Source: Streptomyces fuscigenes (GTDB lineage Bacteria > Actinomycetota > Actinomycetes > Streptomycetales > Streptomycetaceae). From it: a stretch of 36,464 nucleotides of DNA. Positions within the stretch are counted from its first letter, which is position 1. Each line of letters opens with the position of its first letter. The position numbers and the translations under genes are program-made. Positions 5,401 to 35,135 of this stretch are shown here, in pieces. A model generated the notes under the pieces. That model saw only the letters and a list, made by a program, of their open reading frames with translations. It made no database searches and was not told the origin of the DNA. The DNA lies in the NCBI RefSeq assembly GCF_021556455.1, contig NZ_JAKGCV010000013.1:1-36464 (forward strand). The letters are read 5' to 3'.

Positions 5401-6242
5401 GACGCGCTCCCCTCGCCGGTCAGCGACCGGCCGGTGAGCTGCTCCAGGGCCGTGACCACCACGTCCGGGTTCTCCAGGGGCGTCAGATGGCGGGTGCCCG
5501 GCACGACCGTGGCCGGTCCGTCCCCGATCCGCTCGGCGAGGTCGCGCGCCATGGCGGGCGGTGTGGCCGTGTCGTCCTCCCCGACGAGCACCCGTACCGG
5601 GTGCGGGACGCGGGTCGCGCGGGCGCGCAGGTCGGCGGCGCCGAGCATCGCGCACGTCGCCTCGTACGCGTGGATGTCGTTGGCGGTGAAGACCGCGGTC
5701 AGCCGTTCCATCAGCGCGGGCTCCGCGGCGCGGAACGCGTCGCCGAACCAGCGGGTCAGCTGGAACGGGATCAGCGCGCCGAGCCCCTCGCGGCGGGCCT
5801 TTCGGGCCCGCCCGGCCCAGTCGTCGGGGGCCGTGGGCCCGTACCAGGCGGTGGTGTCGACGAACAGCGCCCCGCGCGTGCGTTCCCGGTGGCGCGCGGC
5901 GAACTCCTGCGCCACGCAGCCGCCCATCGAGCAGCCCGCCACGACGGCGTCCGGCCAGCCGAGATGGTCCAGCAGGTCGGCCAGGTCGTCCGCGAACTGC
6001 GACGTGGTGTAGGGGCCTTCGGGACGCCCGGAGCGGCCGTGGCCCCGGCAGTCGTACGCGAGCGTCTCGGCCGCGCCCGCGAGCCGGTCCCCGACGCGTG
6101 ACCACAGCGACCGGTCGAGGGCCAGGCTGTGGACGAGGACGACGCGCGGGGCGCCTGCCGGCGCGGGGGTGTGCGTGTAGGACAGGGTGACGCCGTCGCG
6201 GGTGCGCGCCTCGCCCTCGGTCCCCGTGTCCGCGGTGGTCAT
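5397..6242 (-). CDS. Alpha/beta hydrolase, 3-oxoadipate enol-lactonase-like
   Basis: This 281-residue alpha/beta hydrolase has nucleophile S105 in the elbow AGCSMGGCVAQ, an acid within VGEDDTATPP, and H252 in GTRHLTPLENP. The N-terminal DGVTLSYTH and the YDCRGHGRSG block resemble PcaD-type enol-lactonases, which hydrolyse lactones after aromatic ring opening. The ATG at 6242 overlaps the stop of the FAD subunit by 4 bases (ATGA), and the gene's own stop overlaps the amidohydrolase start, so all three are translationally coupled. A lactone or acyl-CoA product of the Mo-hydroxylase step is a plausible substrate. The residues support hydrolase chemistry but not a named substrate. Confidence 0.9.
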   Translation of the reverse strand: MTTADTGTEGEARTRDGVTLSYTHTPAPAGAPRVVLVHSLALDRSLWSRVGDRLAGAAETLAYDCRGHGRSGRPEGPYTTSQFADDLADLLDHLGWPDAVVAGCSMGGCVAQEFAARHRERTRGALFVDTTAWYGPTAPDDWAGRARKARREGLGALIPFQLTRWFGDAFRAAEPALMERLTAVFTANDIHAYEATCAMLGAADLRARATRVPHPVRVLVGEDDTATPPAMARDLAERIGDGPATVVPGTRHLTPLENPDVVVTALEQLTGRSLTGEGSAS

Positions 6243-7186
6243 CGGTCTCCTCCTGCGTGGTGCCCGGTGCCCCGGGCGCGGTGCGCCGCCTCGGTGAGCG
6301 CGCGCCGCGAGAACTCGCCGATCATGCGGGTCTTGTAGGCGGCCGAACCCTTCACGTCGTCGTAGGGACGGGTGCCGGATGCCGCCGCCCGCGCGGCCTC
6401 CTCGACCAGGTCCGCGTCGAACCGCCCGCCCAGCAGCCCGTCGAGGGGGACCGCCACCGGGCCGCCCTCGACCGAACCGACGGCGAGCGAGAGCCGGGTG
6501 GCGCGGCCTTCGCCGTCGAGTCCGACGACGGCGGCGACATGGACGCACGCGTACTCCCACACGCCCCGTACCAGGTACTTGCGGTACGCGGAGCCCGTGG
6601 CGGCGCCCCGCGGGCGGGTCGGCAGGGTGACGGCGACGAGCAGTTCGCCGGGGCGCAGCCCGCCGTCGGCCGCGGGCCGCAGCGCCTCGGGCACGCTCAG
6701 CGTCCGGCTGCCGCCCCGGGCCGCGCGCACCGTGAGGTCCGCGCCGAGCGCGGTGAGCGCGACGGGCGGGTCGTGGGCGTCGTCATGGGCGGCGATGTTC
6801 CCGCCGAGGGTCACGAGGCGGCGTATGCGCCCGGTCGCGACGGAGCCGCACGCCTCGGTGAACACGGGCCAGACCCGCGCGATCGCCGCGGCCTTGGCAC
6901 AGTCGTCGAGCGGGGTGGCGGCGCCGACGGTGATCCGCCCGTCGGGGCCGGTGCGGACGCCCGCCAGTGCGGGCAGGCCGGCCACCGGGACCAGCGTGCT
7001 GGGGCGGTCCGGGGCGCGGTGATGGCGTGCCAGGGTGTGGCCGACGCCGCCGCCGAGCACCGCGGCGCCGTCCTGTGCGAGGAGCGCGAGCGCCTCGTCC
7101 AGGGAGCGCGGGACGGCGAGGGCGACGGGCGGGCGGGGTGCGGGGGCGCCGCCGCCGCTGCCTGCTTCCGCTGCGAGGGTCGTCAT
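6239..7186 (-). CDS. FAD-binding (medium) subunit of xanthine dehydrogenase-family Mo-hydroxylase
   Basis: This 315-residue protein carries the two FAD-contact loops of the CoxM/HcrB/XdhB family: AVLGGGVGHTLARHH near residue 42 and VTLGGNIAAHD near residue 130. The C-terminal third matches the CO dehydrogenase flavoprotein C-terminal domain (SLAVGSVEGGPV). It passes electrons from the iron-sulfur subunit to an external acceptor. Its start overlaps the stop of the large subunit by 4 bases, and its stop overlaps the next hydrolase. The gene order small-large-medium is compatible with a heterotrimeric enzyme assembled from one transcript. Confidence 0.93.
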   Translation of the reverse strand: MTTLAAEAGSGGGAPAPRPPVALAVPRSLDEALALLAQDGAAVLGGGVGHTLARHHRAPDRPSTLVPVAGLPALAGVRTGPDGRITVGAATPLDDCAKAAAIARVWPVFTEACGSVATGRIRRLVTLGGNIAAHDDAHDPPVALTALGADLTVRAARGGSRTLSVPEALRPAADGGLRPGELLVAVTLPTRPRGAATGSAYRKYLVRGVWEYACVHVAAVVGLDGEGRATRLSLAVGSVEGGPVAVPLDGLLGGRFDADLVEEAARAAASGTRPYDDVKGSAAYKTRMIGEFSRRALTEAAHRARGTGHHAGGDR

Positions 7187-9681
7187 CGTGCCTCCTGTGT
7201 ACGGGAGTCGGGCCCGCGCCCGGCGTCCGGCGCGGACGCGGAGCCGTGCGGCGCGGACGCGGGATCGCGCGGTGCGGGCGCCGCGTCGGGTTCGGGGGCC
7301 GACGAGCGGGCGTCCTGCGCGGTCGGGTCGGCGGTGTCCGGCGGGGCACCCTGCGCGCTCATGCCCCAGAACACCTTCTCGGCGGTGATGGGCAGCTCGT
7401 GCACCCGGACCCCGACGGCGTCGGCGACCGCGCTCGCGATGATGGACGGCACCGGGTCGAGGGAGATCTCGCCGACGCCCTTCGCGCCGAAGGGGCCGGT
7501 GGGCTCGTAGGAGTCGGCGAACCCTATGTGCAGCTTCCGGGGCATGATCCCGGCCGTGGGGAGCTTGTAGTCGCCGAAGTTGGGCCGCCGCGGGCCGCCG
7601 TCGCGCCAGCTGAAGCGCTCCGTGACGGCCATGCCGAGGCCCTGCGCGATCCCGCCCTCGACCTGGCCCTCCGCCAGCGGCGGGTTGAGGACCGTGCCGC
7701 AGTCGACGACCGCCGCGAACTCGGTGACGGTCAGGGCGCCCGTCGCCGGGTCAACCTCCACCTCGGCCGCCTCCGCGGCGAAGTTGTAGGCGCCGGACTC
7801 GTTGCCGTAGCGGGACTGGTCGGGGAACTCGGAGGGGTTGTCGAACGAGCCGATGCCGATGACGGGTTCGCCGTCCGGCCGGTACAGCTCGGCCCGCACG
7901 ACCGTGCCGACGGGCGAGGACACCGGGTCCCCGCCGTCCGGTCCGGCGGGCCCGTGCACCACGCCGTCCGCCACCCACAGCTGGGAGGCGGGCCGGCCCA
8001 GCTGGCGGGCGGCCGCTTCGAGGAGCCGCCCGCAGGCCTGCTCGGCCGCGCGTTTGACGGCGTTGCCCGCGACGTAGGTGACCCGGCTGGCGAGCGCGCC
8101 CAGCGCGTGCGTCGTCAGATCCGTGTCGGGCCTCGACACGGAGACGTCGGCGACGGCCAGGCCGAGTTCGGCGGCGGCGATCTGCGCGAGGGTGGTGCGG
8201 GCACCCGTCCCGATGTCGCCCTCGCCGACGATGACGGTGGCGCGGCCGTCCTCGGTGAGGCGGACGATCGCGGAACTGCCGTCGTAGTCGCCGAAGCTGC
8301 GCCGGCCCGAGACATGGACGCTGACGCCCATCGCGAGGCCCCGGTTCGGGGTGGGGTTCGCCCGCTTGCCGGCCCAGTCGATCGCCTCTGCGGCCTTGGT
8401 GATGCACTGCTTCAGCTCGCAGCTGGTGATCTTGTGGTTGTGCGGGGAGACGCTGCCGGACTCCACCGCGTTCAGCAGGAACAGGTCGGGGACCTCGATG
8501 CCCAGCTTCCCGGCCGCGAGGTCCCACGCCTGCCCGACGGCCCAGTCGGCGGACGGGTTGCCGAAGCCGCGGAACGCCCCGGTCGGCACGAGGTTCGTGT
8601 ACACGAGGCGCGAGTGCGCGCGCACCGCCCGGTAGTTGAACAGCGCGTCGTGGCGCACGGTCGCCGCGCCGAGCACGGCCTGCGCCTTGCCGGTGTAGGC
8701 GCCGTTGTCCGCGATCACCTCGATGTCCTTCGCCGTGACCAGTCCGGAGGCGGTGAAGCCGAGCCTGACGCGGTAGCGCATCGGGATCCGGGGGCGGCTC
8801 GCGAGGAACTCGTCCTCCCGGGTGTTGACCAGTTGTACGGGCCTGCCGGTCCGCCGGGCCAGGATCGCGCAGATCACGGACGTGTTGTCGTCGCCGGACT
8901 TGCCGCCGAAGCCGCCGCCGATCTCGGTCTGCACGACCCGCACCGCGCGCAGGGGCAGGCCGAGCGCCGTGGCGTAGCGCTGCCGGGCGAGGAACGGTGT
9001 CTGCGTGTTGACCCACATCGACACACGGTCCCCGGCCCACTCGGCGGTGCAGCCGATGGTCTCGATGGACGCGTGCCACTGCCTCGCGGTCTCCCAGACG
9101 CCCTCGACGACGACGTCGCTGCGCTCGAACCACGCGTCGGCCCCGCCGCGGTCGAAGGAGAACTCGTGGGCCACGTTCCCCTCAGCGTCGTCGTGCACGA
9201 GCGGCGCGCCCTCGGCCAGTGCCTCGTCGAGCGACAGCACGGCGGGCAGCGGCTCGTAGACGACCTCGATCAGCTCGCAGGCCCGCCGCGCGGTCTCCAG
9301 GTCGCGTGCGGCGACCGCGGCGACCTCGTCCCCGATGTACCGGACGCGGTCGAGTGCCAGCGGGTACAGGTCGGGGCGGAAGGCGCCCCATTTCACCCGG
9401 GCCGTGTCGGCGCCGGTGATGACGGCGTGCACCCCCGGCAGCCGTTTCGCGCGCGAGGTGTCGACGGAGACGACGCGGGCGTGGGCGTGCGGCGAGCGCA
9501 GGACCGCGCCGTACAGCATGCGCGGCAGGCGGGTGTCCGCCGCGTACGTCGCACGTCCGGACACCTTCTCCAGCGCGTCGATGCGCTCGACGGGGCTGCC
9601 GATGAGCGGCGGCAGGACGGCCCTGCCGAGGTCGAGGGCGGAGGACGGCAGGCCGGTAGCGGGCATCTCGGTGGTGGACAT
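7183..9681 (-). CDS. Molybdopterin-binding (large) subunit of xanthine dehydrogenase-family hydroxylase
   Basis: This 832-residue catalytic subunit has the MoCo signatures TEIGGGFGGKSGDDN, GAFRGFGNPSADWAVGQ and the general-base glutamate E738 in GAKGVGE, so it should be active. The enzyme hydroxylates a carbon next to a ring nitrogen or oxygen, or acts on an aldehyde or acyl-CoA, using water as oxygen donor. The HVSGRRSFGDYDGSSAIVRL region resembles the 4-hydroxybenzoyl-CoA reductase-like branch more than true xanthine dehydrogenases, so the substrate is left open. The ATG at 9681 overlaps the small-subunit stop (TGATG). The last 55 or so residues form an Ala/Pro/Asp-rich tail not expected in the family. 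Confidence 0.94.
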   Translation of the reverse strand: MSTTEMPATGLPSSALDLGRAVLPPLIGSPVERIDALEKVSGRATYAADTRLPRMLYGAVLRSPHAHARVVSVDTSRAKRLPGVHAVITGADTARVKWGAFRPDLYPLALDRVRYIGDEVAAVAARDLETARRACELIEVVYEPLPAVLSLDEALAEGAPLVHDDAEGNVAHEFSFDRGGADAWFERSDVVVEGVWETARQWHASIETIGCTAEWAGDRVSMWVNTQTPFLARQRYATALGLPLRAVRVVQTEIGGGFGGKSGDDNTSVICAILARRTGRPVQLVNTREDEFLASRPRIPMRYRVRLGFTASGLVTAKDIEVIADNGAYTGKAQAVLGAATVRHDALFNYRAVRAHSRLVYTNLVPTGAFRGFGNPSADWAVGQAWDLAAGKLGIEVPDLFLLNAVESGSVSPHNHKITSCELKQCITKAAEAIDWAGKRANPTPNRGLAMGVSVHVSGRRSFGDYDGSSAIVRLTEDGRATVIVGEGDIGTGARTTLAQIAAAELGLAVADVSVSRPDTDLTTHALGALASRVTYVAGNAVKRAAEQACGRLLEAAARQLGRPASQLWVADGVVHGPAGPDGGDPVSSPVGTVVRAELYRPDGEPVIGIGSFDNPSEFPDQSRYGNESGAYNFAAEAAEVEVDPATGALTVTEFAAVVDCGTVLNPPLAEGQVEGGIAQGLGMAVTERFSWRDGGPRRPNFGDYKLPTAGIMPRKLHIGFADSYEPTGPFGAKGVGEISLDPVPSIIASAVADAVGVRVHELPITAEKVFWGMSAQGAPPDTADPTAQDARSSAPEPDAAPAPRDPASAPHGSASAPDAGRGPDSRTQEAR

Positions 9682-10196
9682 CAGCGCTCCTCCTCGCGGG
9701 CCCCGGCCCCGCCGGGGTCCGGGTTCGCGGCCCCGGACGCGACGGCCGCGCGGGCGGAGTCGAGGATCTTCACGTAGCCCGTGCAGCGGCAGTAGTTCCC
9801 GTCGACGGTCTCCCGCAGCCGCTCCTCGTCCGGCGCCGGGTCCTCGTCGAGCAGGGCGCGCAGCGCCATGATGTGGCCCGGTGTGCAGAAGCCGCACTGG
9901 AACCCGGCCTTGTCGACGAAGGCCCGCTGCACGGGGTCGAGCCCCTCCGGGCCGCCGAGGCCCTCCACCGTTTGCACGTCGCGGCCCTCGACGAGGCCCG
10001 CCATCTGGAGGCAGGACGGCACGGCCCGGCCGTCGACGACGACCGTGCAGGCACCGCAGTAGCCGATCTCGCAGCCCGACTTCGTGCCGGTGAGCCCCAG
10101 GTCGTGGCGGAGCACGTCGAGCAGCGGTGCGCCGGGGTCCTGGACGTGGACCTCGACGTCCTCGTGGTTGAGGCGGAAACGCAGGGGTACGGACAT
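9681..10196 (-). CDS. [2Fe-2S] small subunit of xanthine dehydrogenase-family hydroxylase
   Basis: This 171-residue protein has both clusters of the CoxS/HcrC family. The plant-type ferredoxin cluster uses C42, C47, C50 and C62, and the second uses C101, C104, C136 and C138 (FQCGFCTPG and NYCRCTGY). It carries electrons from the molybdenum centre to the FAD subunit. The ATG at 10196 begins MSVPLRF. It is the first gene of the enzyme block and lies about 150 bases downstream of the GntR gene, so it might have its own promoter, though none is obvious. The last 20 residues are a low-complexity tail. Confidence 0.95.
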   Translation of the reverse strand: MSVPLRFRLNHEDVEVHVQDPGAPLLDVLRHDLGLTGTKSGCEIGYCGACTVVVDGRAVPSCLQMAGLVEGRDVQTVEGLGGPEGLDPVQRAFVDKAGFQCGFCTPGHIMALRALLDEDPAPDEERLRETVDGNYCRCTGYVKILDSARAAVASGAANPDPGGAGAREEER

Positions 10197-10348
10197 TGCC
10201 TTCTTCCTTGCCTGGTCTCGTCGGTGCGGTTCGTCGGGTGTGCGTCGCAGGGGCTCGCGGAGCGCCGGTTCCCTCCGCTCGGGCGGGCCGGATGCCCGCC
10301 GGGGGCCGGGCCGGTGCCGGGCGGGGCCGCGCGAGCCGCTGCCCGCCG

Positions 10349-11089
10349 TCAGGGCTCCTCCCCCGTCCAGCCGGAGCGCTCTATGGCGGCGAGGCCGCCG
10401 CGCACCAACGACTGGGTGAGCGCCGAGGCCAGATCCGCGTCCTTGTCCTCGTAGGCGCGCAGCAGCCGCGCGTGGTCCTCGACGGAGGGGCCGAGCCGGC
10501 CCGGCTGCGACAGGCTGAGGTGGCGCAGCTGGAGCGCGCGCAGCCCGAGGGTGTCGAGGATGCGCCGCAGGGTGGCGTCGCGGGCGATGGCCGCCTCCGC
10601 GTTGCGGAACTGGACGTTGACCCAGAAGTAGCGGTCCACGTCGTCCTCCGCCGCGGCGGCCTCCAGCGCGAGCTGGTGGCCGCGCAGGAGTTCCAGGTCC
10701 TGCTCGGTGGCGACCCTGCACACGGAGTGGCTGACCACCGCGTACAGCTCGGCACGCAGGTTGTACAGCTCCCGGACCTCGCTGATCAGCAACCGGGCCA
10801 CCCGCGGCCGGCGGCGCGCGGTGATCTGGACGAACCCCTCCCGTTCGAGCACGAGGAGCGCCTCCCGCACCGGCGTGCGGCTGCTGCTGAACGTGCGGGC
10901 CAGCTCCACCGAGTTGAGGTCGTCGCCGGGCGACAGCCTGCCCTCGATGATCTCCGCCGCGACGGCGACCGCTATCTCGTCGGCGATGCTGGTGCCGGTG
11001 GTGCCCCGGTTGAGCATCCGCGTCAGCTCGTGCCTGCGGGCGGTGTCCCCGATGGTCGGGTACGCCGGGCGGATCGGCACCGTGTTCAC
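10349..11089 (-). CDS. GntR/FadR (FCD) family transcriptional regulator, copy 2
   Basis: This 246-residue regulator has a winged helix-turn-helix (EIIEGRLSPGDDLNSVELA, SSRTPVREAL, LEREGFVQI) at about residues 45-105, followed by an FCD domain with EVRELYNLRAELYAVV. The GTG start at 11089 overlaps the UbiD stop by 4 bases (GTGA), so it is co-translated with the decarboxylase, an unusual position for a repressor. It is a close paralogue of the regulator at 3230-4150 but lacks that protein's long disordered N-terminus. It probably senses a pathway acid and acts at the palindromes near 15.4-15.8 kb; that assignment is inference. Confidence 0.92.
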   Translation of the reverse strand: MNTVPIRPAYPTIGDTARRHELTRMLNRGTTGTSIADEIAVAVAAEIIEGRLSPGDDLNSVELARTFSSSRTPVREALLVLEREGFVQITARRRPRVARLLISEVRELYNLRAELYAVVSHSVCRVATEQDLELLRGHQLALEAAAAEDDVDRYFWVNVQFRNAEAAIARDATLRRILDTLGLRALQLRHLSLSQPGRLGPSVEDHARLLRAYEDKDADLASALTQSLVRGGLAAIERSGWTGEEP

Positions 11090-12543
11090 CGGGGACCGCC
11101 GAGGACGTCGGGCCAGCGCCTCATGACCCGGTCCATCAGTTCCGCGCCGGACTCGGCGACCTTCGGGAACGAGGCGAGCCTGTTCCAGGGCCGGCACGCG
11201 TCGATGACGGCACGGGTGTTGAACGGCGCCGCGCCCTTCTCCCGCAGCGGGTCGACCCGGCTGCCCCAGGTCTGGCGCATGGTCTCGATGTCGTCCGCCG
11301 GGTCCGTGCGCGTGCACATCGCCCACACCACGTCGCTGAGGCTGCGCGGGTTGACGTCGGCGTCCACGACGACCACGAACTTGTTCATGTACGCGGCGGC
11401 CGGCAGCTGTGCCGTGAGGTAACCGGCCTGGCGCGCGTGGCCCGCGTAGCGCTGGTCGACGGCGACGGCGAGGAGTTGGCGCCCTCCGCCCGCCTCGTGG
11501 GCCCAGACGCCCTCGACGCCGGGCAGGCCGGTCTGGATCAGCGCGTCCTGGATCATCGCGGACTTCATCACGCTGCGCATGTACGAGTAGTCGTGCGGCG
11601 GCTTTCCCGGGGGCGCCCCGAGCAGGATCGGGTCGTCACGGTGGTAGATCCGCTCGACGTCGAGCGTCAGCACCGCTTCGGTGCCGCCGCTGTAGTAGCC
11701 GGTCCACTCGCCGAACGGGCCCTCCTGCTCGCGGCGGTCGGGGTACAGCCAGCCCTCGACGGCGATCTCCGCCGTCGCCGGGATCGGCAGTCCCGTGACC
11801 TCGCCCCTGATCACGTCGACGGGCCTGCCGAGGACCGCGCCCGCGTATTCGAGTTCCGAGATCCCCGCCGGGACCTCCGTACCGGCGACGACGAGCAGCA
11901 GCGGGTCGTGGCCGAACGACGCCGTCACGGGCGCCCGGCCCTCGCGGGCGAACCACTCCCGCACGTGCGCGGCTCCGTGCTTGCCCGCCTCGATGTTGAC
12001 GCTGGCGGCGCGCCCGCCGTTTTGCACCTGCATGCGGTAGGCGCCCGCGTTCAGCACTCCCGTGGCGGGGTCCGTGGTGAACACGGCGCACCCGGTGCCG
12101 ATGTAGCGCCCGCCGTCCGCCTCGTGCCACTGCGGCACGGGGAAGGCGAGCAGGTCGGCTTCGCCCGCCGCCGTCACGTTCTCCTTCACGGGGCCCGTCG
12201 GCACCTCCCGCACGGGGTAGCGTCCGGCGTTGGCCGCCCACTCGCCGGGCTTGCTGCGCAGTGCCTCGACGAGGGCCCGGTCGTCGAGGTCCGTGCCGAG
12301 CCGGAGCGTCAGGCCGAGCCGGCGGGCGTTGCTCATGGAGGCGGTCAGCACGCGCTGCCCGCTGCGGTACCCGACGATGTCGTCGAAGAGGAGCGCGGGC
12401 GGGGAGGGCCGCCGGTAGTTCGCCTCGGACGCGGCGCCGATCTCCTTGTCCCAGTGCGCGCCGCCGATCGTCGTGACCTCGCCCAGTTTCCCGGCGAGCT
12501 CCAGCCAGCTCCTCAGGTCGTCGATGTCGTCAAGTGACGTCAT
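11086..12543 (-). CDS. UbiD family prenylated-FMN-dependent decarboxylase
   Basis: This 485-residue protein has the UbiD catalytic triad in order: R170 in AYRMQVQNGG, then E274 and E279 in EGPFGEWTGYYS. The family uses prenylated FMN and a metal ion for reversible non-oxidative decarboxylation of aromatic, heteroaromatic or alpha,beta-unsaturated acids. A GTG eight codons further upstream is possible, but AGAGGAAAGG lies about 10 bases before the ATG at 12543, which favours that start. No UbiX-type prenyltransferase is visible in the window, so cofactor must come from elsewhere in the genome. It is followed by an overlapping GntR gene and preceded by transporter genes, which suggests the transported compound is a carboxylate. 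Confidence 0.93.
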   Translation of the reverse strand: MTSLDDIDDLRSWLELAGKLGEVTTIGGAHWDKEIGAASEANYRRPSPPALLFDDIVGYRSGQRVLTASMSNARRLGLTLRLGTDLDDRALVEALRSKPGEWAANAGRYPVREVPTGPVKENVTAAGEADLLAFPVPQWHEADGGRYIGTGCAVFTTDPATGVLNAGAYRMQVQNGGRAASVNIEAGKHGAAHVREWFAREGRAPVTASFGHDPLLLVVAGTEVPAGISELEYAGAVLGRPVDVIRGEVTGLPIPATAEIAVEGWLYPDRREQEGPFGEWTGYYSGGTEAVLTLDVERIYHRDDPILLGAPPGKPPHDYSYMRSVMKSAMIQDALIQTGLPGVEGVWAHEAGGGRQLLAVAVDQRYAGHARQAGYLTAQLPAAAYMNKFVVVVDADVNPRSLSDVVWAMCTRTDPADDIETMRQTWGSRVDPLREKGAAPFNTRAVIDACRPWNRLASFPKVAESGAELMDRVMRRWPDVLGGPR

Positions 12544-12613
12544 GCCACCCGCCTTTCCTCTCGTCACCGGATTCGTGCCCTTCCGCCGTCGAGCGCCGCC
12601 GCGCGGGCGCGGC

Positions 12614-13645
12614 TCATCGGTAGAGCGAGTCGATGAATCCGGACGCCTTCAGCTTGTCGACGTAGGTGTTGTCGACGAACACGTCCGTGTCGGCCGGCAT
12701 CGTGCCCACGCCCTTGGCGACGGTCGCGGCGAACGAGTCGTGGACGAGCCGGGGATCGACCCTGGGGTCCTTGGCCCACAGCCGGTCGAAGAAGTCGTAG
12801 GAGTACTCGGCCAGTGCCTTGTTGTCGACACCGCTGTGCTTCATGATGCTGCGCACCGCCGCTTCCCTGTCGTTGTGCAGCAGGGCCAGGCACTCCGTCT
12901 CCGACTTGGTGAAGGCCGCGACCGCCTTTCCGTTGGCGGAGAGGTAGTCGGTCTTCACCGTGTAGGCGTTGGCGGCCGTCGGCAGGTCCGTGAAGTCCAT
13001 GATCTTCTTGAAGCCCTTCTGCCGGGTCTTCGTGCCCGTGGGGGGCTGGGTGACGATCGCGTCGACGGCGCCGTTCTCAAGGGCGGACACCTCGGCCGGG
13101 CTCGACTTGAGGTAGATCTTCTGGACGTCCTTCTGGGACCATCCGTTCTTCTTCAGGAGCGCGTCCACGGCCGCGTCGCCCAGCGAACCGGGCGAACTGA
13201 GCCCGATCTTGCGGCCCTTGAGGCCGTCTCCCGGTTTCAGCGACTTCCTGCCCCACATCTCCATGTAGTAGCGGTTGATCGGCAGGGCGATGTAGCGCAG
13301 GTCGACGCCCTTCAGATTCATCGCGCCGGCCGCCGTGGCGGTGGTGGCGCCGACCCCTATCTGCACACTGTTGCTGACGAGGGCGGCCACGAGCTGCGAC
13401 GAGCTGTTCAGCAGTGTGATCTTGACGTCGAGCCCGTTCTTCTTGAAGATCCCCTTGTCCTCGCAGATGTACAGGTCCGAGTAGGCCGCTCCGATGGCGG
13501 TGTAACCGATCGTCATCTTCATGCTGGACGGCTGGACCGACGCGTTTCCGGAGACCGCGCAGCCCGACGCCGTCAGCGCGAGTGCCGCCATCAGCGGGAC
13601 GGTGAGCCTCAGGGCGCCGCGGGGGCGCCGCGGGAACAGTGGCAT
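12614..13645 (-). CDS. ABC transporter substrate-binding lipoprotein, SsuA/TauA/NMT1-like
   Basis: This 343-residue protein begins with a lipoprotein signal: arginines at residues 6-13, a hydrophobic stretch, and a lipobox ending ASGC with C29 as the lipidated residue. The mature part matches the NMT1/SsuA/TauA fold (YTAIGAAYSDLYICEDKGIFKKNGLDVKI cut into its usual blocks, and GVGATTATAAGAMNLKG). AGGAGG sits 6 bases before the ATG at 13645. It lies 13 bases after the permease gene. Relatives bind sulfonates, thiamine precursors or aromatic acids such as phthalate; this neighbourhood points to an aromatic or heteroaromatic acid. There are more lysines than in adjacent proteins, as is common for exported proteins. 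Confidence 0.92.
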   Translation of the reverse strand: MPLFPRRPRGALRLTVPLMAALALTASGCAVSGNASVQPSSMKMTIGYTAIGAAYSDLYICEDKGIFKKNGLDVKITLLNSSSQLVAALVSNSVQIGVGATTATAAGAMNLKGVDLRYIALPINRYYMEMWGRKSLKPGDGLKGRKIGLSSPGSLGDAAVDALLKKNGWSQKDVQKIYLKSSPAEVSALENGAVDAIVTQPPTGTKTRQKGFKKIMDFTDLPTAANAYTVKTDYLSANGKAVAAFTKSETECLALLHNDREAAVRSIMKHSGVDNKALAEYSYDFFDRLWAKDPRVDPRLVHDSFAATVAKGVGTMPADTDVFVDNTYVDKLKASGFIDSLYR

Positions 13646-13658
13646 GCGGACCTCCTCG

Positions 13659-14492
13659 TCAGGCCGTCGCGGACCAGAACGTGAACCGGCGCTCCAGGTA
13701 GCCGACACCGCGGGTGAGGGCGATGGCCACCACCGCGATGACGGCGATGGACGCCATCGCGTCGTCCATCTCGAAGTTCGACGTCTGCAACTGCACCTGG
13801 TAGCCGAGGCCCGAGGACCCCATGAACAGTTCCGCGACGATCGCCCCGATCAGCGCACGCCCGACGGCCTGGCGGACACCGGCCAGGATGTACGGGAGGG
13901 TCGCGGGGAACTCGACCGCGCGCAGTGTGTACAGCCGGGAGGCGCAGTAGACGCGGGACACCTGCCCGTAGGCGGGCTCCAGGTTGCGTGTGCCGGCGAT
14001 GACGTTGATCAGCAGTGGGAACATCGCGCTCCACACCACGATGACCAGCCGCGCGTTCATCCCTATGCCGAACCAGAAGATCAGCATGGGCAGGAAGACC
14101 ACGTAGGGCACCGAGTACATGATGCTGATCACCGGGTCCGTCAGCCCGTACAGGTACTTGTTGCGTCCGATCAGCAGGCCCAGCGGTATTCCGACGACGA
14201 CCGAGATCGCCATGCCGAGCGCGACGATCGACAGGGTCGAGCCGAGCGGCGACCAGATCGTGCCCGATCCGACCGCGTCGACGAGCGCCGCGAAGGCCCC
14301 GGCGGGCGAGCTGCTGAAGTTGGGGTCGACCAGGCCCGTCGAGGCGCACAGCTGCCACGCCGCCAGTACCACCGCCAGCCCCACGATGCCGAGCACCAGG
14401 TTCAGGCGGCGGCCCGAGGCGCGCCGGCGGCCCGCCCGGGCCACCCGGACGGGGGGCCGGACCCTATCCGACGACAGTTGCGTTGCTGCCAT
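13659..14492 (-). CDS. ABC transporter permease, SsuC/TauC-like
   Basis: This 277-residue inner-membrane protein has about six hydrophobic segments (from LNLVLGIVGLAVVLAAWQLC to AVIAVVAIALTRGVGYL). The EAA loop that docks on the ATPase is EFPATLPYILAGVRQAVGRA, near residues 188-207. It belongs to the binding-protein-dependent transport family of nitrate, sulfonate and taurine importers. An upstream GTG at 14498 is in frame, but a GAAGGG lies about 9 bases before the ATG at 14492, so the ATG is preferred. The start lies inside the end of the ATPase gene (29-base overlap), indicating translational coupling. Confidence 0.92.
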   Translation of the reverse strand: MAATQLSSDRVRPPVRVARAGRRRASGRRLNLVLGIVGLAVVLAAWQLCASTGLVDPNFSSSPAGAFAALVDAVGSGTIWSPLGSTLSIVALGMAISVVVGIPLGLLIGRNKYLYGLTDPVISIMYSVPYVVFLPMLIFWFGIGMNARLVIVVWSAMFPLLINVIAGTRNLEPAYGQVSRVYCASRLYTLRAVEFPATLPYILAGVRQAVGRALIGAIVAELFMGSSGLGYQVQLQTSNFEMDDAMASIAVIAVVAIALTRGVGYLERRFTFWSATA

Positions 14493-15303
14493 GGTCACTC
14501 GCCCTTCGGCCTGGTTGCGTCTGGCTCATGACGAGCCCGAGGATGTAGTCGCTGATCTCCTGGAATTCGGGGGACCTCTTGACGGCCGCGTCGCGCGGGC
14601 GCGGCAGATCCACGTCCACGACCTCGACCAGGTGCGCCGGCCCGCTGGAGAAGACGACGACCCGGTCCGCGAGGAACACGGCCTCCGGCACGTCGTGCGT
14701 GACGAACACGGCGGTCTTGCCCCGGCCCGCGCCGTCGACCTGCCAGATCCGGGTCAGCTCCTCCTGCATGACCTCCCTGGTCTGCGCGTCGAGCGCGGAG
14801 AACGGCTCGTCGAGCAGGAGGAGATCGGGGTCGGTGGCGAGCGCCCGGGCCAGGTTCACCCGCTGGCTCATGCCGCCCGACAGCTCACGCGGATACGCCT
14901 TCTCCTTGCCGGCGAGCCCGACCAGCTCCACCAGCTCGGCGACCCTGGCCCGGCCCCTCTCGTCCAGCCGCTGCTGGGCCTTCAGGCCGAACTCGATGTT
15001 GGCCGCCACCGTCCGCCAGGGGAACAGTGACGCCTGCTGGAAGACGAGCGACCGGTCGGGCGAAGGCCCTTGTATCGGGGCGCCCGTGAGCTCGAGGCGG
15101 CCGGACGCCACCGGCACCAGGCCCGCGAGGGCGCTGAGGAACGTCGTCTTGCCGCAGCCGCTCGGGCCCACGATGGCCACGAACTCGTTCTCCGCGATCT
15201 CGAACGAGAGCCCGTCGCAGGCGAGCGAGAACGCTTCGGTACGCGACGACCAGTGGCCGAGCCTCACGTCGTCGACGACCAGTTTCTGGGATGGATGGTT
15301 CAC
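14464..15303 (-). CDS. ABC transporter ATPase, SsuB/TauB-like
   Basis: This 279-residue nucleotide-binding protein contains every ABC motif: Walker A GPSGCGKT (46-53), Q-loop in VFQQASLFPW, signature LSGGMSQR, Walker B LLLLDEPF and the switch histidine in FVTHD. The closest type is the nitrate/sulfonate/taurine importer ATPase. GGAGGAGG lies 5 bases before the GTG at 15303, which decides the start over an in-frame ATG 14 codons upstream. It is the first gene of the leftward catabolic cluster. A perfect 12-bp palindrome lies about 126 bases upstream of it. Confidence 0.94.
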   Translation of the reverse strand: MNHPSQKLVVDDVRLGHWSSRTEAFSLACDGLSFEIAENEFVAIVGPSGCGKTTFLSALAGLVPVASGRLELTGAPIQGPSPDRSLVFQQASLFPWRTVAANIEFGLKAQQRLDERGRARVAELVELVGLAGKEKAYPRELSGGMSQRVNLARALATDPDLLLLDEPFSALDAQTREVMQEELTRIWQVDGAGRGKTAVFVTHDVPEAVFLADRVVVFSSGPAHLVEVVDVDLPRPRDAAVKRSPEFQEISDYILGLVMSQTQPGRRASDHGSNATVVG

Positions 15304-15427
15304 GGATACCTCCTCCGAGGGAGAGCCGGTCACACCACCGAGCACTCCGCCGGCGGAGCCCGTGAGAGGACGGAGGCGGCGGAGGGGCAGCAGCCCCGCC
15401 GCAGCCGCTTCGTCACGGCTCGTCGCA

Positions 15428-18906: not shown

Positions 18907-19959
18907 ATGAGTTCGTTCGTCCGCAATCAGTGGTACGTCGCCGCCTACGGCACCGAGGTGGGCCGCGAGCCCTTCTCCCGCACGGTCTGCGGCGAGCCGG
19001 TCCTCCTGTGGCGCACGGAGGACGGCGCGGTCACCGCCATGTCCGACCGCTGCGTGCACCGCCGCTTCCCCCTCTCGCAGAAACCGAGCCACCTGGCCGG
19101 GGACCGACTCGTCTGCGGCTACCACGGGTTCACGTACGGGGCCGACGGCGTCTGCGTGTCCGTGCCGGGTCAGCGCAGGGTGCCGAGGACGGCCCGCCTG
19201 ACCACGTACCCGGTCGCCGAGCTCGACTCGTTCGTCTGGGTGTGGATCGGCGACCGGGAAGCGGCGGATGCGGAGGCGATCCCCCGGGCCCCCTGGCTGG
19301 CCGACCCCGCGTACACGACGGTCTGCGGCATGGAGCCTCTCGCCGCGCGCTACGGGCTGCTCGTCGACAACCTGCTCGACCTGTCGCACGAGACGTACCT
19401 GCACGGCGGGCACATCGGCACCCCCGAGGTCGCCGAGACGCCCATCACCACCGAGGTCGACGAGGCGGCGGGCGTGGTCCGGGTCAGCCGCCGCATGGAC
19501 GACGCGGCCTGCCCGCCGTTCTACGCCCGCTCGACGGGCATCGAGGGGCGCATCACGCGCTGGCAGGACATCGAGTACCACGCGCCGTGCCTGTACCTGC
19601 TCCACAGCCGGATCGCCCCGGTCGGCACCCCGCCGCCCGCCGCCGACGGCACCGATCCGGACGCCTTCCACGTCGAGGTCGTCTACGCGATCACGCCGGA
19701 GACCGAGCACAGCACGCACGATTTCTGGGCGGTGGCCCGGGACTTCGCGCCGGGCGACCGGACGGTGAGCGAGTTCCTGCACGACAGCAATCGCACGGTC
19801 GTCCTTCAGGACGTGGTCGCGCTGGACGTCCTGGAGAAGGCGGTGGCGGCCGAGGGCCGCGCGTACCAGGAGCTCAGCATCAACATCGACACCGGCGGCC
19901 TCGCCGCCCGGCGCATCCTGGACCGGCTGCGGGCCACCGGCGCGGGAGCCCCGGCGTGA
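18907..19959 (+). CDS. Rieske non-heme iron oxygenase, vanillate O-demethylase (VanA)-like
   Basis: This 350-residue terminal oxygenase has the Rieske [2Fe-2S] ligands C49, H51, C70 and H73 (RCVHRRFPL and VCGYHGFTY). The mononuclear iron site is DNLLDLSHETYLH, with N155, D158, H161 and H166. The length and the N-terminal RNQWYVAAY match the VanA/PobA group that demethylates or hydroxylates aromatic acids and related compounds. GAGGAGAAAGGCAGG precedes the ATG. Its stop overlaps the GTG of the next gene by 4 bases. Electrons presumably come from the reductase two genes downstream. The substrate cannot be told from sequence. Confidence 0.94.
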   Translation: MSSFVRNQWYVAAYGTEVGREPFSRTVCGEPVLLWRTEDGAVTAMSDRCVHRRFPLSQKPSHLAGDRLVCGYHGFTYGADGVCVSVPGQRRVPRTARLTTYPVAELDSFVWVWIGDREAADAEAIPRAPWLADPAYTTVCGMEPLAARYGLLVDNLLDLSHETYLHGGHIGTPEVAETPITTEVDEAAGVVRVSRRMDDAACPPFYARSTGIEGRITRWQDIEYHAPCLYLLHSRIAPVGTPPPAADGTDPDAFHVEVVYAITPETEHSTHDFWAVARDFAPGDRTVSEFLHDSNRTVVLQDVVALDVLEKAVAAEGRAYQELSINIDTGGLAARRILDRLRATGAGAPA

Positions 19960-20363
19960 CCGGCGGCCCCGCGGGCCCCGGCGGGTCGGATGCCCGGGCC
20001 GGGGCGGCGCCGGAGGGCGCCACGGCGGTTCGGGCGGGTGCGGGCCCGGGGGACGCCATCGGGGTTCCGGCCGGGGAGCAGGTCTTCCGCATCCGCTGGG
20101 TGCCCGGGACGGACCAGTTGCTCGCGGTCTGCTTCTGCGGCGCGGAACGGCCGTTCGAGGGCCCGGTGGAACTCTGGGAGTGGCTGCTCGCGCACCCGGA
20201 GCATCCGGACGCACCGCCCGCACCGGCCGCCCCGGCCGCCCCTGCCGGTCCTGCCGGTCCTGCCGGTCCTGCCGGTCCTGCCGGTCCTGCCGGTCCTGCC
20301 GTACCGTCCGACCCCGCCGGGCCGGCCGGCCCCGCCGCACACAATCCGGAAGACGGGACATGA
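19956..20363 (+). CDS. Small CxC-motif protein of unknown function between oxygenase and reductase genes
   Basis: This 135-residue protein is read from a GTG that overlaps the oxygenase stop (GTGA), and its own stop overlaps the reductase start (ATGA). That position strongly supports translation. Residues 1-40 are Ala/Gly-rich, and the core (about 41-88) reads FRIRWVPGTDQLLAVCFCGAE, then PVELWEWLLAHPEHP. C59 and C61 form a CxC motif that could bind a metal or cluster. The tail is a collagen-like Gly-Pro-Ala repeat. I do not recognise a named family. A role as an accessory or assembly factor for the Rieske system is suggested only by context. Confidence 0.75.
   Translation: MTGGPAGPGGSDARAGAAPEGATAVRAGAGPGDAIGVPAGEQVFRIRWVPGTDQLLAVCFCGAERPFEGPVELWEWLLAHPEHPDAPPAPAAPAAPAGPAGPAGPAGPAGPAGPAVPSDPAGPAGPAAHNPEDGT
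20241..20300 (+). repeat. 9-bp tandem repeat encoding a collagen-like (Gly-Pro-Ala)n tail
   Basis: The unit cctgccggt is repeated about 6.7 times without interruption inside the 3' part of the small CxC gene. It encodes Pro-Ala-Gly triplets. The copies are identical at DNA level, so the array is recent or length-variable. Confidence 0.9.
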
Positions 20364-21343
20364 GCTTCCACGCCGATGAGTTCGACGTCGTCGTCGCCCG
20401 CCGGGAGAGCGTGGCGGACGGCGTCGTACGGCTCAGCCTCGCCGATCCGGCCGGGGCCCCGCTTCCGCCGTGGGAGCCGGGCGCCCATCTGGACCTCCTG
20501 CTCGCGCCCGGCCTCGAACGGCAGTACTCGCTCTGCGGCGACCCGGCCGACCGCTCGGTCCTCAGGATCGCCGTGGCCCGCGATCCGGCGGGCCGGGGCG
20601 GGTCGCGGCACGTGCACGCCGAACTCACGGAGGGCACGGTGCTGCGGGCGCGCGGCCCCCGCAACCACTTCCCGCTGGTGGAGGCCGCCCGCTACCTGTT
20701 CGTCGCGGGCGGCATCGGCATCACCCCGCTCGCGGCGATGATCGGCGCGCTCGCCGCGCGCGGCGCCGAGTGGCGGCTCGTGTACGGGGGACGCACGCGG
20801 GCCTCGATGGCGTTCGCGGCGAGCCTGGCCGCCGCCCACCCGGACCGGGTGGAGATCTGCCCCCAGGACGAGACGGGGCTGCTCGACCTCTCCGGCCTGC
20901 TCGGCGTGCCCCGTACGGACACGGCCGTGTACTGCTGCGGCCCGGAGCCGCTGCTCGCGGCGGTCGAGGAGCGCTGTGCGGCGTGGCCGGCCGGAGCCCT
21001 GCACACGGAACGCTTCGCGCCGAGGCCCGGCCCGCCCCCGGAGACCGGTCCGCGCACGCACCCGAGCGCGGCGGAGGGCGCCTTCGAGGTGGAACTCGCC
21101 GCGTCGGGAAGGACGCTGACGGTGCCGCCCGGCCGGTCGATCCTGGAGGTGGTGGAGGACGCGGGCGTCCAGGTGCTGTCGTCGTGCCGCGAGGGCACCT
21201 GCGGGACCTGCGAGACGGATGTCCTCGCGGGCGAGCCCGACCACCGCGACGCGCTGCTCACCGCGGACGAACGCGCGGCGAACGACGTCATGTTCATCTG
21301 CGTGTCGCGCTGCCGCTCGGAGCGGCTGGTACTCGACCTGTGA
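20360..21343 (+). CDS. PDR/VanB family ferredoxin-type oxidoreductase
   Basis: This 327-residue reductase has the class IA phthalate dioxygenase reductase order. First is a flavin domain with RQYSLCGDP (residues about 54-62), then an NAD domain with FVAGGIGITPL and YCCGPEPLL, and last a C-terminal plant-type ferredoxin with C276, C281, C284 and C314 (SCREGTCGTC and ICVSRC). It takes electrons from NAD(P)H and passes them to the Rieske centre of the oxygenase. The ATG at 20360 overlaps the small-protein stop, so all three genes are coupled. It is followed by about 140 bases containing a 44-bp direct repeat and then the convergent IclR gene. Confidence 0.95.
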   Translation: MSFHADEFDVVVARRESVADGVVRLSLADPAGAPLPPWEPGAHLDLLLAPGLERQYSLCGDPADRSVLRIAVARDPAGRGGSRHVHAELTEGTVLRARGPRNHFPLVEAARYLFVAGGIGITPLAAMIGALAARGAEWRLVYGGRTRASMAFAASLAAAHPDRVEICPQDETGLLDLSGLLGVPRTDTAVYCCGPEPLLAAVEERCAAWPAGALHTERFAPRPGPPPETGPRTHPSAAEGAFEVELAASGRTLTVPPGRSILEVVEDAGVQVLSSCREGTCGTCETDVLAGEPDHRDALLTADERAANDVMFICVSRCRSERLVLDL

Positions 21344-21483: not shown

Positions 21484-22407
21484 CTAGGACACGGACGCCG
21501 GTTCGGCGCCCAGCGAGCGGGAGATGCCGCGTGCGGCGACCTGCACCAGCGGGACGAGCGTGTGCGGCTGCACCGCACCGGCGTGGGCCACGACGGACAC
21601 CGCCGCGACCACGTCCCCCCGAGGTCCGTACACCGGGGCGGCGACCGACACGCTGTCCAGCGTCACCTGGCGCTCGCACACGGCCACTCCCGTGCGCCGC
21701 ACCTCGGCGAGCAACTGCCGCAGCAGGGACGGATCGCACACGGTCGCCTCGGTGCACCGGGCCGGCGGCCCCGCCAGCACCTGTTCCTGCACCTCCGGCG
21801 GCGCGTACGCGAGCAGGACGCGGCCCACCCCGGTGGGCATGAGGGCGAACCGCCCCGCCACCCTGGTCAGCACGGGCACCGCGCCGCGCCCCGCGAGCCG
21901 CTCGACGAAGACGACCGAGAGGCCCTCGCGCACGGCCAACTGCGCGTTCTCCCCCGTGACATGCACCAGGTCGGAGAGCTGCGGCAGGGCGAGTTCGCGC
22001 AGCCCGAGGCCGCGCGGCGCCAGCGACGCGATCTCCCACAGCCGCAGGCCGATGCGGTACGAGCCGCCGCCGTCGCGCTCCAGTGCGCCCCACCGGGTGA
22101 GCTCGCCGACGAGGCGGTGCGTGGTGGTGAGCGGCAGGCCGGTGTGGCGCGCGAGGGCGGTGAGGGTGCGGACGGGCGCGTCGGGCGTGAAGGCCTCCAG
22201 CACCCGCAGGGCGCGCATCGTGACCGAGACGGGCACCTCCCGGGCAGGGGCGGAACGCTTCCCGGTGGTGGCCGCGGGCACCGCTCCCGCACCGGAAGCC
22301 GCCCCCGTCCCGAGCATCACCTCTGCCCCGGAAGCTGCTTCTGCCCCCGCCGCTCTGGCGCGCACCGCTCCCGTGTCGCCCGCCGCACTCGTTCCCCGTA
22401 CAGCCAT
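21484..22407 (-). CDS. IclR family transcriptional regulator
   Basis: This 307-residue protein carries an IclR winged helix-turn-helix at about residues 60-118 (ALRVLEAFTP, LTALARHTGLPLTTTHRLVGEL). An effector domain follows, with LSVVFVERLAG, PTGVGRVLLAY and a DSVSVAAPVYGPRGDVVAAVSV ending cut into its usual blocks. The first 55 residues are Ala/Gly/Thr-rich and atypical, so a later start is possible, though the ATG at 22407 is the one in view. It converges on the Rieske operon and is the most likely regulator of it. IclR proteins commonly sense aromatic acids. Confidence 0.92.
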   Translation of the reverse strand: MAVRGTSAAGDTGAVRARAAGAEAASGAEVMLGTGAASGAGAVPAATTGKRSAPAREVPVSVTMRALRVLEAFTPDAPVRTLTALARHTGLPLTTTHRLVGELTRWGALERDGGGSYRIGLRLWEIASLAPRGLGLRELALPQLSDLVHVTGENAQLAVREGLSVVFVERLAGRGAVPVLTRVAGRFALMPTGVGRVLLAYAPPEVQEQVLAGPPARCTEATVCDPSLLRQLLAEVRRTGVAVCERQVTLDSVSVAAPVYGPRGDVVAAVSVVAHAGAVQPHTLVPLVQVAARGISRSLGAEPASVS

Positions 22408-33194: not shown

Positions 33195-33602
33195 TCAGTG
33201 GTTGCCGACACCGTTGCCCGACAGGACCGGGATCTGGTCCAGGATGTGCGACAGCGGCTCGTCGCCCTTGGCCTGGGTGGAGTTCTCGGTGCACTGCTGG
33301 TTCTGCGGGTTGGACAGGACGTTGACGTCCTGGACCGCGATCGGCACCAGGCCGACGAGGGAACCGGCGTTGACCTTGGCCGGCAGGCCGACACAGGGCT
33401 TGTTCAGCGAGCCCTGGACCAGGCTCAGCTGGGGGCTCATGTCGCCCATGGTGGCGGAGTTGCCGAAGGCCTGCTGAGCACCGTTGCCGCTGGCCGACAC
33501 CGTGCCCGAGTCGTCGCCCACGGCCATGGCCGGGGCGGCCGAGGCGGCGACGCCACCGGCGATCGAGACGGCGACGGCGGCGGTTGCCCACAGCTTCTTC
33601 AT
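33195..33602 (-). CDS. Rodlin family protein 1 (RdlA/RdlB-like)
   Basis: This 135-residue secreted protein has a signal peptide (KK, a hydrophobic stretch, cleavage near APAMA-VGDD). The mature part is rodlin: SGNGAQQAFGNSAT, QGSLNKPCVGLP, LSNPQNQQCTENSTQAKGDE and IPVLSGNG. Rodlins form the paired-rod layer on aerial hyphae and spores together with chaplins. GGAAAGG lies 7 bases before the ATG. This copy has the most divergent signal peptide of the three (MKKLWATAAVAVSIAGG). A sigma-BldN-like promoter lies 50 bases upstream and a strong hairpin follows the stop. Confidence 0.96.
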   Translation of the reverse strand: MKKLWATAAVAVSIAGGVAASAAPAMAVGDDSGTVSASGNGAQQAFGNSATMGDMSPQLSLVQGSLNKPCVGLPAKVNAGSLVGLVPIAVQDVNVLSNPQNQQCTENSTQAKGDEPLSHILDQIPVLSGNGVGNH

Positions 33603-33651
33603 TTTGGAACCTTTCCGGAAAGTCGGACTCCACGGAAGGAGTCCGATGGGT

Positions 33652-33679
33652 ACAACGCGGCCGTCCGGGGCTGGTTTCG
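33652..33679 (-). promoter_or_regulatory. Sigma-BldN-like promoter of rodlin gene 1
   Basis: On the minus strand, CGAAAC (33674-33679) and CGTTGT (33652-33657) are separated by 16 bases. The recalled BldN consensus is CGTAAC-N16-CGTTGA/T. The -10 box ends 49 bases before the start codon, like the two other rodlin promoters. Confidence 0.7.
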
Positions 33680-33735
33680 CGCCCTCCCTCGAACGGCCCA
33701 CCGCGGCGGGTCACCGCGCTTAGGCAAGGCGGCCT

Positions 33736-33768
33736 GGCCCGCGGCGCGCGGCATCCGCGCCGCGGGCC
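33736..33768 (-). terminator. Hairpin terminator after rodlin gene 2
   Basis: Two perfect 13-base arms (ggcccgcggcgcg and cgcgccgcgggcc) flank a seven-base loop, about 17 bases after the stop codon of the second leftward rodlin. Confidence 0.85.
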
Positions 33769-33785
33769 GGCCGGTCAGCGGACGG

Positions 33786-34196
33786 TCAGCGGTTGCCCGC
33801 GCCGTTGCCGGAGAGCACCGGGATGTCGTCCAGCAGGTGCGACAGCGCCTCGTCGCCCTTGGCCTGCGTCGAGTTCTCGGTGCACTGCTGGTTCTGCGGG
33901 CTCGACAGGACGTTGATGTCCTGGACCGAGATCGGCACCAGGCCGACGAGCGAACCGAGGTTGGCCTTCGCGGGCAGGCCGATGCACGGCTTGTTCAGCG
34001 AGCCCTGGATGAGCGCCATCTGCGGGCTCATGTTGCCGTAGGTCGCGGAGTTGCCGTAGTACTGCGCGGCACCGTTGCCACTGAGCGAGGTGGTGCCGTG
34101 GCTGTCGCCGACGGCCATCGCCTGCGGGGCGAGTGCGGCCGAGGCGCCCACGACGGAGGCGGCGACGGCCGCACCCGCCATAACCTTCTTGATCAC
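33786..34196 (-). CDS. Rodlin family protein 2 (RdlA/RdlB-like)
   Basis: This 136-residue secreted rodlin has signal peptide IKKVMAGAAVAASVVGASA and cleavage near PQAMA-VGDS. The mature blocks are SLSGNGAAQYYGNSATYG, QGSLNKPCIGLPAKAN, LSSPQNQQCTENSTQAKGDE and DDIPVLSGNG. AAGGGG lies 8 bases before the GTG at 34196; an in-frame upstream ATG would spoil the signal peptide. It is divergent from rodlin 3, with which it shares a nearly identical signal peptide, implying recent duplication with inversion. Confidence 0.96.
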   Translation of the reverse strand: MIKKVMAGAAVAASVVGASAALAPQAMAVGDSHGTTSLSGNGAAQYYGNSATYGNMSPQMALIQGSLNKPCIGLPAKANLGSLVGLVPISVQDINVLSSPQNQQCTENSTQAKGDEALSHLLDDIPVLSGNGAGNR

Positions 34197-34244
34197 GATG
34201 AGTCCCCTTCTGATGGATCGCCCCAACTGCCAGGGGCTCACTGA

Positions 34245-34272
34245 GCAACTGCGGACCACGGGTTTAGTTCCG
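34245..34272 (-). promoter_or_regulatory. Sigma-BldN-like promoter of rodlin gene 2
   Basis: On the minus strand, CGGAAC (34267-34272) and AGTTGC (34245-34250) are 16 bases apart. The -35 matches the recalled consensus at five of six positions and the -10 keeps the GTTG core. The -10 ends 48 bases before the start codon. Confidence 0.6.
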
Positions 34273-34336
34273 TGCATTCACCCCAATGGCCCAGCGGTCA
34301 GGGCGCGGCCCGGGGCAAGCCGAACGGGTGAAGAAG

Positions 34337-34364
34337 CGGAACCAAACCGGGAGCCCGCTGTTGG
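34337..34364 (+). promoter_or_regulatory. Sigma-BldN-like promoter of rodlin gene 3
   Basis: CGGAAC (34337-34342) and TGTTGG (34359-34364) are 16 bases apart. The -35 and the first spacer bases (aaacc) are the same as in the divergent rodlin 2 promoter. The -10 ends 46 bases before the GTG start. Confidence 0.6.
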
Positions 34365-34410
34365 TACAGGTCGCACCACTTGCATTCTTGAGAAAAGGAA
34401 AAAGCCAACC

Positions 34411-34824: not shown

Positions 34825-35135
34825 TCCGTGCGCCGAGGGGCCGGTCCGGGCGGTGCCGCCGCCGGGACCGGCCCTTCGTCTTCCCCTCTTCTTTTCGGCC
34901 CGGGTTTCGGCCCAGGCCCGCCATCTCACCGGCTTTCGGGCGCCGTTCACCGCAGAAACGAATTTGCGGGGCGCGGCATTCGAGTGAACGGGAAAGAAGT
35001 GGTAATGCCGAACAGTTTCCTGCCCACATTCTGATCGTTGAAGTTCCCGCAGCGGCTGCACGGGAACCGCTTTTCGGGACCCACGGACCACGACAGTCGT
35101 GCGAACGCGCTTTCCCCGCTGCGGAAGGGCTCGAA
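34825..35135. other. Intergenic region between rodlin 3 and the short chaplin
   Basis: No gene is apparent. The left third is the rodlin terminator. The right part is less GC-rich than its surroundings and should hold the chaplin promoter. CGTTGA at 35036-35041 equals the recalled sigma-BldN -10 consensus, but no matching -35 lies 16 bases upstream, so it is not called as a promoter. Confidence 0.55.
34836..34876 (+). terminator. Hairpin terminator after rodlin gene 3
   Basis: Arms gggccggtcc (from 34838) and gggaccggccc (34864-34874) pair around a gc-rich middle, 13 bases after the stop. A pyrimidine-rich tract with several T runs follows (ttcgtcttcccctcttctttt in part). Confidence 0.8.

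Follow-up and report, generated by a model that had tools for sequence, protein, structure and literature searches.

A small gene between the oxygenase and reductase genes of a probable aryl demethylase operon in Streptomyces fuscigenes encodes a protein of a real and widespread family that had gone unrecognised. The operon lies in a stretch of 36,464 nucleotides (the window; contig NZ_JAKGCV010000013.1) and consists of a gene for a Rieske [2Fe-2S] oxygenase of the VanA/DdmC kind, a gene for a small protein with a CxCG motif, and a PDR/VanB-like reductase gene (Table 1). The conserved core of the small protein recurs in other genomes beyond what chance would allow and is under purifying selection. 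What is new here is the third gene; the demethylase pair that surrounds it is already familiar.

The Rieske and small open reading frames (ORFs) share the four bases GTGA (19956-19959), and the small and reductase ORFs share ATGA (20360-20363), in agreement with the 4-base overlaps and the coordinates given in an earlier reading of the DNA letters without database searches (the sequence-only reading). From these overlaps we infer that the three genes may be translationally coupled.

Distribution of the small gene and its linkage to neighbouring genes

A search of 246 genomes of the genus with a 52-residue core yielded strong matches (E ≤ 1.5e-9) at 95 places in 93 genomes, and all 95 adjoin a Rieske gene. 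Conversely, the core is present at 95 of the 99 Rieske orthologs of at least 67% identity in these genomes, a count that leaves out five Rieske rows of at most 53% identity, and one of the four core-less orthologs (G197) lies where a contig breaks off, with the beginning of the core already visible. A further 23 weak core rows (E 0.0056-0.097) were not counted; the three examined (L047-L049) showed no Rieske or reductase match, and G197 is among the genomes with such rows, its true copy being broken by the contig end. At class level (394 genomes), 25 places were found at E ≤ 6.4e-7; 12 of these belong not to the genus but to five other actinomycete family codes, and at each of the 25 the core is flanked by both the Rieske and the reductase gene. 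Nine weaker rows at this level (E 2.7e-4 to 0.01) were likewise not counted, and the five examined (L098-L102) had no Rieske or reductase match. In a sample of the phylum (149 genomes), the only strong core matches were three of the genus, and the single weak match (L103) showed neither a Rieske nor a reductase match. The core gene is also carried by two Pseudonocardia plasmids, where the plasmid records annotate it as a hypothetical protein. The conservation of both core and position in other genomes, on which the sequence-only reading had staked its proposal, is thus borne out. One genome of the genus (G086; L038, L137) has three Rieske operons, two of them divergent, side by side and with the small gene, the third elsewhere and without it.

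The layout of the junctions was read at 58 places, with one row per place; L001, L047 and ten duplicates of narrower extent were skipped. At 57 of the 58, a start codon in frame is available that makes the small ORF overlap the Rieske gene by 4 bases, and at the remaining one the overlap is of 1 base; because the start nearest the Rieske stop was picked, this overlap shows the availability of a start and not its measured use. On the reductase side, we found 4-base overlaps at 49 places, 8-base overlaps at three and gaps of 10-85 bases at six.

In a tree of 92 Rieske rows, 79 rows have the core, and every one of these 79 also has an adjacent reductase gene. Seven of the 13 core-less rows lack an adjacent reductase as well, one of them only through a contig end, and none of the five rows that fall outside the main clade of 87 (L138, L139, L144, L153, L157) has the core. 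The tree requires at least six changes of core state, one of which may be due only to the end of a contig (L136). This pattern is compatible with a gain close to the base of the 87-row clade and later losses, on a tree whose root was not inferred. The rows are selected Rieske places and not every place found: 21 named duplicate or weak loci were dropped, and the tree is also without L001, L003-L008, L032 and L098-L133 (either weak or already covered by wider loci) and L156 (Rieske match too short).

Constraint and predicted structure of the small protein

The conserved domain of the window protein spans only about residues 40-84, and the outer parts are rich in proline, alanine and glycine and of low complexity. 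With these ends and a tandem repeat the window copy is swollen compared with the other 57 small proteins of the genus, which measure 51-95 amino acids. The repeat was not seen in any of these 57, and since its unit is 9 bp, an in-frame expansion would not break the small gene. Nine residues, W, D, L, C, C, G, P, W and H, are invariant in the alignment of all 58 genus proteins and include the CxCG motif; the two cysteines stand at residues 59 and 61 of the window protein, as originally read. The C2H2-like arrangement of the CxC motif and a later H-(P/S)-H pair, as far as it can be read from sequence alone, is kept in 77 of 80 small proteins, the exceptions being L036, L145 and L156.

Ratios of nonsynonymous to synonymous substitution rates (dN/dS), taken over 2642 pooled and non-independent pairs, were 0.44 for the core, 0.36 for the reductase and 0.27 for the Rieske gene, and synonymous divergence was similar in the core (0.35) and the Rieske gene (0.37). 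Constraint thus appears to act on the small protein, because its dN/dS lies below 1 and its synonymous sites have diverged about as much as those of the Rieske gene.

A single-sequence AlphaFold2 prediction for a 50-residue core (window residues 39-88) gave a beta-beta-beta-alpha arrangement with a mean predicted local distance difference test score (pLDDT) of 78.7, with strands at 6-10, 17-21 and 26-29 and a helix at 32-41 in the numbering of that core. In the predicted fold, the first cysteine lies at the end of strand two and H80 directly after the helix, a placement that makes a single metal site plausible.

In line with the sequence-only reading, which had placed the core in no known family, no library profile names it: scans of the small protein and its core against Pfam and NCBIfam gave no convincing family match, and a search of PDB sequences with the core profile gave nothing convincing (best E 0.38). 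Matches to collagen and adhesins came from the repeat-rich tail only (collagen PF01391, 14.2 bits against a cut-off of 27.2), and the full window protein matched, in the sequence collection, only a clostridial stretch through residues 76-133 of the same tail, which we take as chance. Weak matches to the hepatitis C NS5A zinc finger (0.012), DUF3604 (0.07) and aIF-1A (0.11) were likewise taken as chance.

Absent and altered copies

Four core-less loci (L135, L142, L143, L144) have neither the core nor an adjacent reductase. At L134 (G006:C12) only a remnant is left, in which the Rieske overlap, the N-terminus and the helix are kept and the strand and CxC part is gone, as if by an internal in-frame deletion. 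The small protein of L156 is truncated. On a plasmid of Streptomyces NBC_00342 (NZ_CP108001.1; L154), the small gene at 8986-9165 is unannotated and the record starts the reductase within it (9107), which illustrates that annotation can miss this gene.

Oxygenase, reductase and likely reaction

The oxygenase matches Pfam Rieske (PF00355, 1.3e-19, 70.4 bits, cut-off 20.3) and VanA_C (PF19112, 5.1e-41, 141.4 bits, cut-off 23.5), and its translation contains the CxH and CxxH motifs. The reductase matches NAD_binding_1 (PF00175, 4.5e-7, residues 114-203) and Fer2 (PF00111, 1e-13, residues 247-318), in the domain order of PDR/VanB proteins, and its relatives are annotated as PDR/VanB family oxidoreductases. 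Among solved structures, it comes nearest to phthalate dioxygenase reductase (2pia, 7.9e-62) and to the reductase portions of two P450 chains. The pair therefore has the make-up of a VanAB-type system, with a Rieske and VanA_C oxygenase and a reductase with an NAD-binding and a C-terminal 2Fe-2S domain; given the middle gene conserved in most close genus orthologs, it does not have two components only.

Neighbouring genes at several related loci point to the reaction. Protocatechuate 3,4-dioxygenase genes occur at the core-bearing loci L145 (pcaH over cut-off) and L149 (by similarity), 4-hydroxybenzoate 3-monooxygenase and pcaDBGH are annotated near L154, and a major facilitator superfamily (MFS) transporter of the aromatic-acid type is found at L034 (below cut-off). 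Acyl-CoA ligases are encoded at the core-bearing L040, L146, L148 and L152. At L036, the nearest relative locus, an S-(hydroxymethyl)mycothiol dehydrogenase gene directly follows the operon (NCBIfam equivalog over cut-off); with a mycothiol-type gene at L038, this makes two of 49 core-bearing loci. A glutathione-independent formaldehyde dehydrogenase gene (FdhA) lies near L142 and L144, two of eight core-less orthologs with downstream DNA, and was found at none of the 49 core-bearing loci (loci of 8-36 kilobases). L139 is likewise near such a gene, by similarity only; its Rieske protein is only 44% identical, with neither the small gene nor a reductase directly after it. Most loci have no aromatic- or formaldehyde-type neighbour at all. 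The protocatechuate dioxygenase, transporter and formaldehyde dehydrogenase neighbours suggest an aryl O-demethylase that would release formaldehyde and feed protocatechuate, and the enzyme is probably an aryl demethylase of plant-derived aromatic acids.

Surroundings of the operon in the window

An IclR-family regulator gene runs convergently with the window operon, and an IclR cluster was found at 32 of the loci clustered by neighbour genes. Seven genes of a catabolic-looking block were named by Pfam, and its regulator and other importer genes by eye. The block may be a cluster for the degradation of aromatic compounds, in which case its substrate might also reveal what the Rieske enzyme acts on. 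At 33195-36464, the window holds a series of short secreted proteins resembling, by eye, rodlins and chaplins, the spore surface proteins of Streptomyces.

Table 1. Features of the window. Genes of the catabolic-looking block were called with a codon-usage caller trained on window genes.
Feature	Position	Strand	Details
VanA/DdmC-kind Rieske [2Fe-2S] oxygenase	18907-19959	+	ATG...TGA, 350 amino acids
Small CxCG protein	19956-20363	+	GTG start, 135 amino acids; 4-base overlap with each neighbour
Conserved core of small protein	20073-20207	+	about residues 40-84; W48, D53, L55, C59-x-C61-G62, P70, W74, H80, H83 (alignments)
9-bp tandem repeat	20241-20301	+	6.8 copies, 100% matches; codes GPA repeats in tail of small protein
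PDR/VanB-like reductase	20360-21343	+	NAD-binding and 2Fe-2S domains, 327 amino acids
IclR-family regulator	21484-22407	-	convergent with operon; Pfam HTH_IclR and IclR_C (scanned as 21484-22320)
Catabolic-looking block	4336-15345	-	amidohydrolase, alpha/beta hydrolase, three molybdenum hydroxylase subunits, regulator, UbiD decarboxylase, NMT1-type ATP-binding cassette importer

Discussion

The reading that we favour, tentatively and in the awareness that it may well be wrong, is that the small protein is a dedicated, probably zinc-stabilised accessory subunit that tunes a VanA/VanB-type aryl demethylase of actinomycetes. Its domain of about 45 residues would fold into three short strands and a helix, and a putative structural metal site, most likely for zinc, would be made up of C59, C61, H80 and another histidine shortly after it. 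Translated between its two partners, the subunit would bind at or near the contact of oxygenase and reductase and there stabilise or tune the delivery of electrons. We favour a role at this contact because every core-bearing row of the tree pairs with an adjacent reductase; one paper reports the compatibility of VanA and VanB subunits as governing VanAB activity (PMC13288931).

Several observations weigh against this reading. Close Rieske and reductase pairs at L137, L140 and L141 have no middle gene. At L145 (5293-5409, minus strand), the helix and the HP..H end are retained but arginines take the place of both cysteines, so that a metal site cannot be general to the family. Among the Rieske relatives L036 is the closest (84%), and its small protein is without the second histidine; L154 has the motif CHCA and not CHCG. 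The core evolves somewhat faster than the neighbour genes, as judged by dN/dS. The fold was predicted from a single sequence and no alignment: a Foldseek search with it gave no match at E ≤ 0.001 and the best VIA-align Z was 4.0, with hits spread over unrelated proteins, although the absence of a listed fold family is not evidence of a new fold. Finally, characterised VanAB systems are described as two-component (PMC9867520). Since the gene is absent from some close operons and L145 encodes a copy without cysteines, we regard it as accessory and not obligatory. The suggestion in the sequence-only reading of a third component of a VanAB-like system is supported in part, by a conserved family fixed between VanA- and VanB-like genes, with CxCG in all 58 genus proteins; the three pairs without the gene, the remnant at L134 and the L145 copy speak against a strict component.

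A stronger version, possible but in our view doubtful, is that this clade of actinomycete Rieske demethylases forms a three-part enzyme in which the metal-binding mini-protein has a part of its own in the catalysed reaction, either as a gate for electron transfer or as a carrier of the formaldehyde set free.

An assembly factor, the example put forward in the sequence-only reading, or a metallochaperone, in which the CxC protein would deliver or hold iron or a 2Fe-2S cluster while the oxygenase and reductase fold, is suggested by a gene between two iron-sulfur enzymes, by the possible coupling through 4-base overlaps and by the conserved CxC. We nevertheless consider it unlikely: several close pairs do without the gene, the L145 copy does without the cysteines, and profile scans reveal no convincing likeness to an iron-sulfur assembly family, the WD-repeat protein Ciao1 appearing in the PDB profile search only at E 0.75-0.93, which we take as chance.

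Improbable, too, is a role in formaldehyde handling, by which a Cys/His-rich protein would capture released formaldehyde and pass it to mycothiol or to formaldehyde dehydrogenase. The mycothiol-type dehydrogenase genes at L036 and L038 would fit, as would the presence of FdhA genes near core-less orthologs and their absence from core-bearing loci, and the CxCG motif resembles by eye that of the GFA family. However, the mycothiol-type gene stands at very few core-bearing loci, and the FdhA contrast is confounded because L142 and L144 also lack the reductase. Moreover, GFA (PF04828) gave no match at E ≤ 10 in Pfam scans of 24 members of the small protein family, and hhalign assigned a probability of 1.2% when three GFA sequences were compared.

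A ligand set of two Cys and two His is known from Rieske clusters, and the same set in the small protein, together with its confinement in the tree to rows with an adjacent reductase, could suggest a redox relay that binds iron or [2Fe-2S] and carries electrons between reductase and oxygenase. This we hold to be highly improbable, as a Fer2 domain is already present in the reductase, the CxC spacing is not that of Rieske clusters, and the ligands are lost in L145 and one of them in L036. That the ORF is a mere translated spacer coupling the flanking genes, its product functionless, would suit the overlaps on both sides, the low-complexity ends and the operons without the gene, but deserves next to no credence in view of nine invariant residues, a dN/dS below 1 at Rieske-like synonymous divergence and a fairly confident compact predicted fold.

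In the literature searched (titles and abstract openings, with few subscription papers), no description of a third gene in such operons was found. The conversion of lignin into products is often held back by aryl O-demethylation (PMC6021390). If a third small protein is normally at work in this clade, assays without it may undervalue such enzymes, and if the three-part reading is true, expression of two genes would miss a working part. The operons without the gene and the copy without cysteines provide natural controls for the role of the small protein.

Comparison with known systems

GFA/CENP-V proteins (PF04828) share the CxCG motif with the small protein but have a 115-position domain with further cysteines (three sequences) and no profile similarity to the core. 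Dimethylamine monooxygenase, of which DmmA is a subunit, is a formaldehyde-releasing demethylase; DmmA-like_C is a small cysteine-bearing domain of 44 positions, and the window reductase weakly matches DmmA-like_N (1.5e-6, below cut-off). In contrast to the window core with only two cysteines, DmmA-like_C has four in two CxxC pairs (eight sequences). We found no match to DmmA-like_C (PF22289) among the 24 members, with an hhalign probability of 0.7% over 7 columns against sequences taken from the class-level search (eight of nine rows compared, the L161 locus being cut short), and a search for PF22289 in the genus gave no match anywhere, controls included.

The caffeine N-demethylase NdmCDE is a Rieske demethylase system that also includes proteins other than an oxygenase and a reductase, and the ferredoxin domain of its NdmD (6icm_D) is related to that of the window reductase. 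Its accessory NdmE is a protein resembling glutathione S-transferases, unlike the window small protein in size and motif. Dicamba O-demethylase DdmC is the best solved relative of the window oxygenase (E 2.5e-47 over residues 1-342). Its electron chain consists of a separate ferredoxin and a reductase, whereas in the window operon the reductase itself carries the ferredoxin domain, and the small protein gave no match to a ferredoxin profile.

The VanAB systems of Pseudomonas, Rhodococcus and Streptomyces sp. NL15-2K differ from the window operon in the third conserved gene that here stands between the oxygenase and reductase genes. They share with it a VanA_C Rieske oxygenase encoded beside a PDR/VanB-type reductase, a likeness at the level of protein domains, and, at several relatives of the window operon, pcaHG(B) genes and an MFS transporter of the aromatic-acid type.

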